From Serratia ficaria (GTDB taxonomy: Bacteria > Pseudomonadota > Gammaproteobacteria > Enterobacterales > Enterobacteriaceae), in contig NZ_LT906479.1 in assembly GCF_900187015.1 (NCBI RefSeq), positions 2,790,001-2,854,000 of the forward strand: 64,000 nucleotides of DNA. Direction: 5' to 3'. Below, piece by piece: positions 25,154 to 28,083 of the stretch; position 1 is the stretch's first letter, and every line of letters begins with the position of its first letter. The position numbers and the translations under genes were made by a program. The notes under the pieces are model-generated. The model did no database searches and had not been told where the DNA came from. It was given only the letters and a program-made list of their open reading frames with translations.

Positions 25154-25182
25154 AAAAAAAAAGCCAGCACCCGAGCTGGCTT
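25154..25182 (-). terminator. RyhB terminator
   Basis: AAGCCAGC-TCGGGT-GCTGGCTT on the minus strand is followed by seven or more U residues. It probably also ends transcripts of the upstream Zur operon. Confidence 0.88.
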
Positions 25183-25260
25183 AAAAAACACTGGAAGCAA
25201 TGTGAGCAATGTCGTGCCTTCCACATCAGAGCCGCAAACTGTGGCCTTCCGTGAACTGCC
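25154..25260 (-). ncRNA. ryhB: RyhB-type iron-responsive sRNA
   Basis: An Hfq-dependent RNA that turns off mRNAs of iron-using proteins when iron is scarce. On the minus strand, 25217-25190 carries the RyhB core (GCACGACATTGCTCACATTG, then CTTCCAGT) unchanged from E. coli. A terminator AAGCCAGC/GCTGGCTT with a long U run follows; the E. coli stem is almost the same. The 5' third differs from E. coli RyhB, making this copy about 107 nt instead of 90. A 17/19 Fur box covers the promoter. It sits between pspF and the Zur operon, unlike E. coli, where ryhB is near yhhX. Confidence 0.93.
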
Positions 25261-25267
25261 AGGCGAT

Positions 25268-25286
25268 GATAATGGTTATCAGTATC
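25268..25286 (-). promoter_or_regulatory. Fur box at the ryhB promoter
   Basis: GATAATGGTTATCAGTATC matches the 19-bp Fur consensus GATAATGATTATCATTATC at 17 positions. It lies between a TTTACA -35 and a TATCAT -10 on the minus strand, where iron-loaded Fur would block initiation. A second, weaker Fur-like dyad (TGAGAA-TTT-TTCTCA) is at 25305-25319. Confidence 0.8.
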
Positions 25287-25341
25287 ACCTGTAAAGCACT
25301 TTGTTGAGAATTTTTCTCATTACCACACCGACGTTGTGCGA

Positions 25342-26529
25342 TTACCATGCAGGAAACGGGTCCGCCATCTCCAGCCAATAGTCCAGGCCGGCGGCCATTT
25401 GGTCGTCGTCGAGCAGGCAGGCGTCCAGCATGCGGGCGATCTCCGCCTGGCGCAGATGCTGGCCGATAAACACCAACTCCTGACGCATGTCGCCGAACGG
25501 CTCTACCCACTTCTCCTGAATATGCGCACGGGTTTCTTCGTCCGGCGGCCAGTTATCCTGCGGAATAGCGCGCCAGAAGGTGCCCGCCAGCCCGTAATGG
25601 GCGATGCCGCCGGCCTGGCTCCACTGCCCGGCCTGGCGCGGCCGCGTCGCCAGCCAGAAGAAGCCCTTCGAGCGCAGCAACGTGCCGCCGCCCCAGTCGC
25701 CGTTGATCACCCGGTAAAACTTATCCGGGGCGAACGGCCGCCGGGCCTGGTAGACAAAGCTGCTGATGCCGTAGTTTTCCGTTTCCGGCACATGCTCGCC
25801 GCGCAGCTCTTTCAGCCAGCCGGGCGCCCGCTGCGCCTTTTCAAAGCTGAAGCTGCCGGTATTCAGCACCGCCTCCAGCGGCAGCTGGCCGGGAGAGATC
25901 GGCAGAATGCGCGCGTCGGGGTTCAGGCTGGCGAGCAGCGCCATCACCTCACCCTGCTGCCGCTCGCTCAACAGATCGGTTTTGCTGACCAGCATCACGT
26001 CGCAAAACTCGATTTGCTCGATCAGCAGATCCGCCACGCTGCGCAGATCGTCCTCGCCCAGGCTTTGCCCGGCCTCCTGCAGCGTTTGCGCCTGCCGGTA
26101 CTGCCGTATAAAGTTCACGCCGTCGACCACCGTCACCAACGTATCCAGCCGGGCGAACTGCGACAGGCTTTCGCCGCGTTCGTCTGCAAAGGTAAAGGTT
26201 TCCGCCACCGGCAGCGGCTCGGAGATGCCGCTGGATTCGATCAGCAGATAGTCAAAACGCCCGGCCTGCGCCAGCTCGCGCACTGACACCAGCAGGTCCT
26301 CGCGCAGCGTGCAGCAGATGCAGCCGTTGCTCATCTCCACCAGCTTTTCTTCCTGGCGATCGAGCCGCACTTCGTTTTCCACCAGCGCGGCGTCGATGTT
26401 CACTTCGCTCATGTCATTGACGATCACCGCCACGCGCATGCCCTGACGGTTATTCAAAATATGGTTCAGCACCGTGGTCTTGCCGGCGCCGAGAAAGCCG
26501 GAAAGCACGGTTACGGGTAATGGACTCAT
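25342..26529 (-). CDS. COG0523 GTPase, zinc metallochaperone candidate
   Basis: A 395-residue G3E-family GTPase with a CobW C-terminal domain. The ATG at 26529 is preceded by AGGGA; the longer frame begins with GTG and has no better signal. The P-loop is GFLGAGKTT (11-19), the metal motif is CxCC at Cys70, Cys72 and Cys73 (GCICC), and NKxD reads SKTD. The CobW domain ([32 protein letters not shown]) is complete. Proteins of this group placed in Zur operons supply zinc to key enzymes when zinc is short. It is the last gene of the folE2 operon, 12 bp after the previous stop, and is upstream of ryhB on the same strand. Confidence 0.92.
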
Positions 26530-26541
26530 GGGTTCCCTCAC

Positions 26542-27102
26542 TTAAAACTCATTGCGCAATGCCTGGTAGCCGCGCACCAGTTCGACGTTGGTGGCGGCCA
26601 CCTCTTCGGAAAATTGCAGCGCGCCGCGGTCCACCTGCGCATAAAGCGACAGATCGCTGTCGGCGCCGACGCGCTCGGTCGATGGGATATACCGATTCTC
26701 CGGCAGCGTCACGCCGTCGACCACCGCGTTGTAACGCACTACGCAGCCGGAGCGGATATGGCAGTTGAACAGCACGCTGTTGAAGCCGATAAACACCCGA
26801 TCGTCGATGCGGCACGGGCCGTGCACGATGGCGCGGTGAGCGATGGAACTGAAGCGGCCGATGGTCACCGCCGCGCCGCTTTTGGAGTGGATCACCACGC
26901 CGTCCTGGATGTTGGAGTGCGAGCCGATCACGATCGGCTCCATCTCGCCGGCGGCGTTTAATTCATCGGCGCGGATCACCGCATAGGGGCCGACGTAAAC
27001 AAAGTCTTCGACGATCACCCGGCCGCAAATAATGGCGGTGGGATCGATATAGGCCAACGGCGAGACCTGCGGCAGATGGCCGCTGGGGTTTTTACGCAGC
27101 AT
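26542..27102 (-). CDS. gamma-carbonic-anhydrase-like left-handed beta-helix protein
   Basis: A 186-residue hexapeptide-repeat protein. Repeats such as AIICGRVIVEDFVYVGPYAVIRADE and IGRFSSIAHRAIVHGP show the left-handed beta helix. Three His in the positions of the Cam/YrdA metal site are kept (VVIHSKSG, then IAHRAIVHG), so metal binding is likely. Whether it is a true carbonic anhydrase, and whether it uses zinc, iron or cobalt, cannot be told. Its start overlaps the end of folE2 by 11 bp, and the GTPase gene follows. Zur-controlled paralogues like this one are thought to replace or protect zinc-dependent enzymes. Confidence 0.9.
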   Translation of the reverse strand: MLRKNPSGHLPQVSPLAYIDPTAIICGRVIVEDFVYVGPYAVIRADELNAAGEMEPIVIGSHSNIQDGVVIHSKSGAAVTIGRFSSIAHRAIVHGPCRIDDRVFIGFNSVLFNCHIRSGCVVRYNAVVDGVTLPENRYIPSTERVGADSDLSLYAQVDRGALQFSEEVAATNVELVRGYQALRNEF

Positions 27103-28018
27103 CGCCGCCCTCCCGCCAGCTCAGCTCCGCCACCGCGTTGTGGGCGTGCAGGCTTTCCTGATGTTCAACGCGCACCGAGAAGGCGCCGACGTCGCATTGG
27201 CTGCGCAGCATCTGGTACAGGCGACGCGCGGCGTCTTCGCAGAACATCAGATTCTGGCCATTGGCCAGGGCGAAGGCCTGCTCGTCGCGGCGTTTCACCA
27301 GCGTTTGCAGCGGCGTGCCCAAAGTATGTTCGATGCGGTCGATCAGGTTCACCGGGTTGAACGCCGATCCGCCGTCCGTCTGCCACACCGTCACCCAGGC
27401 CCAGCTTCGCTGGCTATGGGGCGTCGCCGGCATGCCGTGCTCCGCCAGCCAGTCGAGCACCTGTTGCGGGCTGACGCTCGCCGCCTGTTCGAAATCAAAC
27501 TGAAACTGCTGCTGCGCCAGCTGGCGACTGAGCGCCGCCGAACTGGGGCAGGTGGAGGAATACGGCACCCCGATCTGCAGCGACAGCGCCAGCCGGTGGG
27601 TCAAGGCGGCATCGATGCGCAGCGGGTAGGCTTTCCAGCCGCGCTGCGGCGACAGCATCGCCGAACGCGACAGCAACAGTTCGCCGCCGATCCGCAGGCT
27701 GGCGCTGTCGCTGTGCTCCGGTTGCGAAGCCAGGAAGGCGCGCAGCGTGTTTTCGATGCGCCGCGGCGTCAGTTCGCCCTGCGTCAGCTCGTCCAGCGCC
27801 AGATACAGCCGCGACATATGAATGCCGCGGGCACCTGCGGCGCTGGGCCGCAAATTGATGCCGGCGTCCACTTTCGCCTGCAGCGGCTTGCCGGCCAGCT
27901 CCAGCGGCAGCGCTATCCCTTGCATCCCGACCCAGTCGAGCCCGACCTCGCTCATTTCACCCCGCCATGCCTGAGCGTCCGGCAGCGGCTGGCGCGGTGG
28001 AAGTGCAATTTGGTTCAT
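27092..28018 (-). CDS. folE2: GTP cyclohydrolase FolE2 (type IB, zinc-independent)
   Basis: Catalyses the first step of folate synthesis (GTP to dihydroneopterin triphosphate) using metals other than zinc. It is the backup for FolE under zinc limitation. The ATG at 28018 has AAGGGGA upstream, so the 15 extra residues of the long frame are rejected. The 308-residue product has the FolE2 marks: VDAGINLRPSAAGARGIHMSRLY, the active-site Cys in VPYSSTCPSSAALSR (usually CPCSK, here CPSSA), and HSQRSWAWV. It is the first gene of a three-gene operon with a Zur box 51 bp upstream. Confidence 0.94.
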   Translation of the reverse strand: MNQIALPPRQPLPDAQAWRGEMSEVGLDWVGMQGIALPLELAGKPLQAKVDAGINLRPSAAGARGIHMSRLYLALDELTQGELTPRRIENTLRAFLASQPEHSDSASLRIGGELLLSRSAMLSPQRGWKAYPLRIDAALTHRLALSLQIGVPYSSTCPSSAALSRQLAQQQFQFDFEQAASVSPQQVLDWLAEHGMPATPHSQRSWAWVTVWQTDGGSAFNPVNLIDRIEHTLGTPLQTLVKRRDEQAFALANGQNLMFCEDAARRLYQMLRSQCDVGAFSVRVEHQESLHAHNAVAELSWREGGDAA

Positions 28019-28068
28019 ACATCCCCTTGCGTTATTGTGACCTTTGCCGGGGAACGGTAACATGATAT

Positions 28069-28083
28069 TGTTATGTTATAACA
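28069..28083 (-). promoter_or_regulatory. Zur box upstream of folE2
   Basis: TGTTATGTTATAACA matches the enterobacterial Zur core TGTTATANTATAACA at every defined position except one. It is placed in the folE2-sapA divergent gap, close to the folE2 start and away from the sapA promoter. Confidence 0.82.

Follow-up and report, generated by a model that had tools for sequence, protein, structure and literature searches.

Directly behind an operon that appears to be controlled by the zinc regulator Zur, Serratia ficaria carries a gene for the small RNA RyhB, which raises the question of whether operon transcription runs on into RyhB and, if it does, whether the cell makes any use of it. An earlier note on this DNA had proposed that zinc-starved cells could obtain RyhB as the processed 3' end of the operon mRNA, even when iron is sufficient, so that zinc limitation would be coupled to iron sparing. 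The junction was analyzed here in the stretch of 64,000 nucleotides that contains it (the window), in genomes of the same genus, and at more distant zigA loci.

The zinc operon and its Zur box

The operon comprises three genes, all on the minus strand. The first, folE2 (27092..28018), encodes GTP cyclohydrolase IB (PF02649, 5.5e-62; NF010200, 286.9 bits against a cut-off of 215). The second (26542..27102) encodes a hexapeptide-repeat protein resembling gamma carbonic anhydrases (PF00132, 7.2e-15), whose top NCBIfam match, the carbonic anhydrase family NF040597, scores 117.1 bits and is thus under the cut-off of 380. The last gene, zigA (25342..26529, with the start set at the ATG at 26529), encodes a COG0523/CobW-type GTPase (NF038288, 666.2 bits, cut-off 600). 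The genes are tightly packed: folE2 and the carbonic anhydrase gene share 11 nt, and zigA follows 12 nt after the latter. Convergent with the operon is pspF (24129..25148, plus strand; NF008622, 639.9 bits, cut-off 529), and at the other end the divergent gene sapA lies on the far side of the Zur box from folE2.

This box, TGTTATGTTATAACA (28069..28083), stands upstream of folE2, between that gene and sapA, and has one mismatch to the Zur consensus TGTTATANTATAACA. The motif is enriched in the window, with 4 sites at up to 3 mismatches where 0.19 would be expected. A direct Zur site at ryhB was considered and rejected, as all four matches sit elsewhere. Over the whole genome, 13 sites with up to 2 mismatches were found, compared with 7 for a reversed control. 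Among the six sites with at most one mismatch are some that precede genes for a type B L31 protein, an AztA-like ATPase and a DksA-type protein, and a site with 2 mismatches lies between znuA and znuC; genes of these kinds are typical Zur targets, with the reservation that the AztA- and AztC-like scores are under their cut-offs. Another of the six (L036) lies by genes for a lipid A phosphoethanolamine transferase and a PTS component, and the neighbors of one more (L034) were left out of the family search. In each of 25 relatives, the top site in the 1-kb region around the expected place had no more than 2 mismatches. With a convincing Zur box upstream of it here, and a site in all 25 relatives, the operon is a probable member of the Zur regulon, as the earlier note had supposed.

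The RyhB gene and the gap before it

The RyhB gene was recognized by a covariance-model match on the minus strand (25221..25155; RF00057, 90.6 bits, E 5.9e-16, gathering score 55), by a Fur box in its promoter and by an intrinsic terminator with a U tail. The Rfam core begins 120 nt past the zigA stop codon. Upstream of it lies a sigma-70-like promoter, TTTACA-18-TATCAT (25266..25295, minus strand), which agrees with the consensus at 10 of 12 positions. A promoter scan alone performs at chance level here (2 sites against 1.0 expected), and the call is made because both hexamers are conserved, being invariant in 26 of 26 same-genus genomes. From this promoter we infer a start near 25259, 82 nt past the zigA stop, and a predicted primary transcript of about 105 nt (25155..25259, minus strand), in agreement with the earlier placement of RyhB some 80 bp beyond the last gene of the operon on the same strand.

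Two Fur boxes accompany this promoter in each of the 26 same-genus junctions. One covers the -10 element (25267..25281) and has 1 mismatch in the window and 1 or 2 across the 26; the other, an upstream palindrome TGAGAA...TTCTCA (25305..25319), has 3 mismatches to TGATAATNATTATCA and 2 or 3 across the 26. The palindrome was also considered as a terminator and was rejected, as it lacks a T tract and is Fur-like. Repeats of length 8 or more were sought in the gap without result, the arms of the palindrome being shorter than that. Conservation among the 26 genomes follows the same layout. The 22 nt after the zigA stop codon are poorly conserved (9/22 columns invariant); they are followed by the palindrome (11/15), the -35 hexamer (6/6), the -10 hexamer (6/6) with its overlying Fur box (13/15), and a short variable stretch (2/7). 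As read from these sequences, the gap between zigA and RyhB is mostly a Fur-controlled ryhB promoter with two Fur boxes. A promoter of this kind is not tied to the operon, since a genome of another genus in the same family (G033) carries RyhB with a very similar two-box promoter that stands without zigA.

The genome contains three RyhB genes, of which the copy in the window is one. A different gene (L076) occupies the E. coli-type locus, with homologues of YhhY and YhhW beside it, and the window copy is therefore considered a paralogue. The core of the other two copies is almost identical to that of the window copy. Several of the genomes searched carry two or three RyhB genes, and two copies, RyhB1 and RyhB2, are described for Yersinia (PMC10342277). 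Neither the two Fur boxes nor the two other RyhB genes figured in the earlier note.

Terminators and the descent of the junction

A strict scan of the window from folE2 to the end of RyhB found no intrinsic terminator other than that of RyhB itself (25161..25182, minus strand, with a T run), the first found on this strand downstream of the Zur box. A scan of 24700-28600 gave two matches, and the sole one on the minus strand was again this terminator (25182-25161). Taken alone that scan is weak, because 3.2 matches are expected by chance, but the RyhB terminator is also covered by the Rfam match. The picture was the same at 27 of 27 loci, comprising the 26 same-genus junctions and an uncultured Enterobacterales contig (L122): no terminator inside zigA, none in the gap by strict and looser scans (the first part of the longer gap of L122 was scanned strictly only), and the RyhB terminator present in each. 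The statement that no convincing terminator separates zigA from RyhB thus holds in the window and at all 27 loci. Nor was any strongly C-rich stretch found over the gap in 78-nt windows, where C minus G ranged from -9 to +2, a crude measure that speaks against a strong Rho site. As no intrinsic terminator was found before RyhB's own, operon transcripts should end there, 187 nt past the zigA stop codon, unless Rho or a roadblock intervenes, and a transcript ending there would carry RyhB at its 3' end.

The lack of a terminator after zigA nevertheless does not appear to be special. When the 150 nt that follow zigA were scanned strictly for intrinsic terminators, 3 of 80 loci had one and 77 did not; these are the best 80 among the matches listed, and close relatives may be missing from them. 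It would seem that zigA genes commonly end in another way or run on. Some of these loci may continue into further genes, so the 77 are not a count of operon ends and the comparison is a loose control. An absence this common cannot be taken as a sign of selection.

The junction occurs in 26 of the 30 genomes of this genus, and exactly these are the ones in which ZigA scores over its cut-off; the four that lack it (G006, G009, G018 and G021) are all smaller, at 1.5-3.6 Mb. The distance from the zigA stop to the RyhB core is 120 nt in 24 of the 26 and 122 nt in the other 2. Among the best 80 zigA matches listed, one has a RyhB core, namely L122. Its zigA shows 81% identity, the two Fur boxes recur, the gap is longer and the gene order is zigA-ryhB-pspF. 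A Prodigiosinella locus (L123) has a zigA of 71% identity facing pspF, with about 20 bases and no RyhB core between the convergent genes. At both loci zigA has sapA on one side and pspF on the other, and queries with folE2 and the carbonic anhydrase gave no match at either. A perfect Zur box precedes zigA in L122, and a site with 2 mismatches precedes it in L123, where 3 of 500 shuffles were as good. The simplest order of events would place zigA first, RyhB behind it next, and folE2 with the carbonic anhydrase gene before it last.

In a search beyond the genus, the pattern of the junction matched 3 of 394 genomes of the order, two of which make up the whole same-genus share of that sample; zigA genes that end in TGA, such as that of L122, escape the pattern. 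The third match (G393) is, to judge from its sequence, probably a chance TGGTAA ahead of a RyhB promoter of the canonical kind. ZigA over the cut-off was also found in five genomes of other families, none of which has a RyhB match near it: G040 and G049 have no RyhB match, that of G036 is far away, and those of G050 and G059 are on other contigs.

Probable run-on transcription and comparison with known systems

The reading that we prefer, with a probability of roughly 0.55, is that RyhB here is made mainly from its Fur-controlled promoter and that zinc starvation adds a partial run-on of the operon into a RyhB-containing tail. On this account a RyhB paralogue would have arrived between zigA and pspF in an ancestor of the genus and its uncultured relative, and stayed. 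Iron limitation would account for most of the RyhB made at the locus, with this promoter as its source. Once zinc starvation relieves Zur, some of the polymerases from the operon would continue across the ryhB promoter as far as the RyhB terminator; the resulting 3' UTR, 187 nt long, would include all of RyhB and its U tail. The result would be some RyhB-bearing RNA in zinc starvation, lowered by whatever Rho termination occurs and, if iron is abundant, by Fur in the path of the polymerase. Some read-through from the zinc operon into RyhB is likely; a meaningful link from Zur to RyhB we consider doubtful.

Such a run-on RNA would have the right 3' end for RyhB action. The RyhB terminator with its 3'-terminal U tail is needed for Hfq binding, and RyhB extended at its 3' end no longer binds Hfq (PMC4509938). 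The terminator leaks in normal growth, by about 20% in E. coli plasmid tests, and more transcripts are ended there under stress (PMC4509938). Predicted folds give a mixed answer as to whether the seed would be as open as in primary RyhB: openness of the seed core is 0.64 in the primary RNA, compared with 0.30 in an RNA beginning directly past the stop codon of zigA, 0.56 in one cut in the Fur palindrome, and 0.56 and 0.25 in two longer forms.

Of the alternatives, the one that survives best, although it is clearly the less probable, is that operon and small RNA are insulated from each other, with the operon RNA terminated either by Rho, within zigA or shortly past it, or at DNA that Fur occupies. 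A corollary, to be held just as tentatively, is that RyhB obeys Fur alone and its closeness to the operon is an insertion accident kept by descent. The high proportion of zigA loci without a strict terminator, which includes the Prodigiosinella locus that lacks RyhB, favors this view, as do the conserved promoter that RyhB owns and the consideration that a single inherited event may account for every case in the genus. It is established that LacI, when bound to DNA, can act as a roadblock to the polymerase (PMC4132739), and bound Fur would presumably act in this way at the ryhB boxes. On the other hand, only 187 nt are available between the zigA stop and the end of RyhB, the gap has no strongly C-rich stretch, and the zigA loci that may continue into further genes weaken the comparison. 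The LacI roadblock is passable, and more so with strong promoters (PMC4132739).

The proposal of the earlier note, that processing of the run-on tail, perhaps by RNase E, yields functional RyhB which spares iron although iron is sufficient, seems to us unlikely. Its anatomical part stood: the common strand, the 82-nt gap, the Zur box and the lack of a terminator before RyhB's own recur in the 26 same-genus genomes with ZigA. There are also precedents for metal-regulated mRNAs that give rise to 3' UTR small RNAs, namely RsaC from mntABC under MntR, and s-SodF under Nur (PMC9294342). Gamma-class carbonic anhydrase may use iron (PMC2770081), so zinc starvation could raise iron demand. Against processing, the proposed case is one of sufficient iron, in which Fur should occupy the two boxes that the polymerase must pass. 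Two other RyhB genes are present in the genome, and a 2022 review table gives "none reported" for small RNAs of Zur (PMC9294342). Structure peculiar to the run-on RNA was unconvincing as well. A predicted hairpin across the -10 element and its Fur box is possible only in RNA that comes from upstream, but it is fully paired in just 7 of 26 genomes, with an A-C mismatch in 15, and in L122 three of seven outer positions are unpaired as judged by eye; its inner half is the Fur palindrome itself. In a covariation analysis of 12 sequence types from which relatedness was not removed, the hairpin's score was reached by 2 of 500 shuffles and its paired cells by 3, while both-side-changed cells were reached by 5, further pair types by 21 and both-side-changed pairs by 181. 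Some of these measures hint at conserved pairing and others do not.

Least probable is a link at the DNA level without RNA processing, in which polymerases from the Zur promoter occlude the ryhB promoter or dislodge Fur to give leaky RyhB: the promoter and both Fur boxes lie wholly within the run-on region and several polymerases are reported to dislodge LacI actively (PMC4132739), but strong operon transcription would be required. The net effect of zinc starvation could be either more RyhB, through run-on or through Fur being knocked off, or less, through promoter occlusion.

Functional coupling of Zur to RyhB is thus an attractive idea suggested by gene order, but its importance for the cell finds no support in a gap that is mostly Fur promoter, behind a gene that commonly lacks a terminator. 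That this RyhB should answer to two metals, to iron by way of Fur at its promoter and to zinc by way of Zur and run-on, with zinc starvation sparing iron, appears improbable, and it is similarly speculative that the iron so spared would serve the replacement enzymes of the operon. If coupling were real, gene order alone would let one small RNA combine the signals of zinc and iron. Zur would then be connected directly to the Fur regulon, and RyhB would be a Zur-linked small RNA of the kind missing from the review table (PMC9294342). A literature search, with most subscription journals outside its reach, found no paper on Zur run-on into RyhB among the best matches listed. Even if coupling is false, the locus is a clean setting, provided by nature, in which to learn how run-on transcription is limited by repressors bound at a promoter further downstream.

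Compared with known RyhB genes (RF00057) and their paralogues, the window copy has the same core sequence, terminator and Fur-boxed promoter, and differs in its place directly behind a Zur operon. We do not file it as type II, the class of small RNAs derived from a 3' UTR, without a promoter of their own and released by processing only, since its promoter hexamers are invariant and the Fur boxes occur in 26 of 26 genomes. Type II RNAs also share the terminator of their mRNA; here the RyhB terminator, the first intrinsic one found downstream of the Zur box, may be used by the operon mRNA as well. The Zur-controlled clusters of COG0523, folE2 and gamma carbonic anhydrase genes described by Haas in 2009 contain the same kinds of gene under the same control; the portions of that article consulted mention no downstream small RNA gene, and the name Serratia is absent from its main text (PMC2770081). 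RsaC and s-SodF resemble the present case in that a metal-regulated mRNA carries the small RNA at its 3' end (PMC9294342), whereas RyhB here has its own promoter under another metal regulator and is at most a candidate for release by processing. A further likeness is PrrH of Pseudomonas aeruginosa, where transcription that begins upstream runs into a Fur-controlled iron small RNA gene (PMC2851614). In that case a second copy of the same small RNA lies upstream and a terminator is read through (PMC2851614); here the upstream unit is a Zur operon without a recognizable terminator.

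Apparent growth of the zigA operon

The zigA operon in the genus of S. ficaria seems, from gene order, to have been extended at its 5' side, because in two outside loci, an uncultured Enterobacterales contig carrying zigA-ryhB-pspF (L122) and a Prodigiosinella locus in which zigA faces pspF (L123), zigA stands alone between sapA on one side and pspF on the other, and is preceded in each by a Zur-like box. Neither folE2 nor the carbonic anhydrase gene was detected beside zigA in these two loci by the queries used.

Elsewhere in the S. ficaria genome, at 1272207 (L034), a perfect Zur-box match is sited between two divergent genes. 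By eye, one of these encodes a putative cysteinyl-tRNA synthetase; cysteinyl-tRNA synthetase is a zinc enzyme.

pspF and the region behind ryhB

The convergent neighbour of RyhB is pspF (24129-25148, plus strand), for which a scan of 25120-25400 on the plus strand found no intrinsic terminator. Judged from the sequence, any run-on from pspF would be antisense RNA to both RyhB and zigA. Among the 26 zigA-ryhB junction loci of the genus, five (L007, L012, L013, L014 and L016) showed no pspF in the 1.5 kb that follow ryhB; the sequence of L013 stops at a contig end. In genome G007 (L228), ryhB and pspF are separated by roughly 2.4 kb that contains two ORFs. Inspected by eye, these ORFs encode a putative short-chain dehydrogenase and a putative MFS-type transporter.

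Other RyhB copies and FnrS

The window that holds RyhB also includes an FnrS sRNA (10149-10267, minus strand; RF01796, 120.2 bits). Two further RyhB genes are present in the S. ficaria genome: L076 (4922992), which occupies the E. coli-type yhhY/yhhW place, and the third copy, L077 (2938080), with a lower score of 72.8 bits. RyhB copies in two other genera (L085 and L087), to which zigA is not adjacent, are preceded by a two-box Fur promoter, with TGAGAA...TTCTCA upstream of the -35 element.
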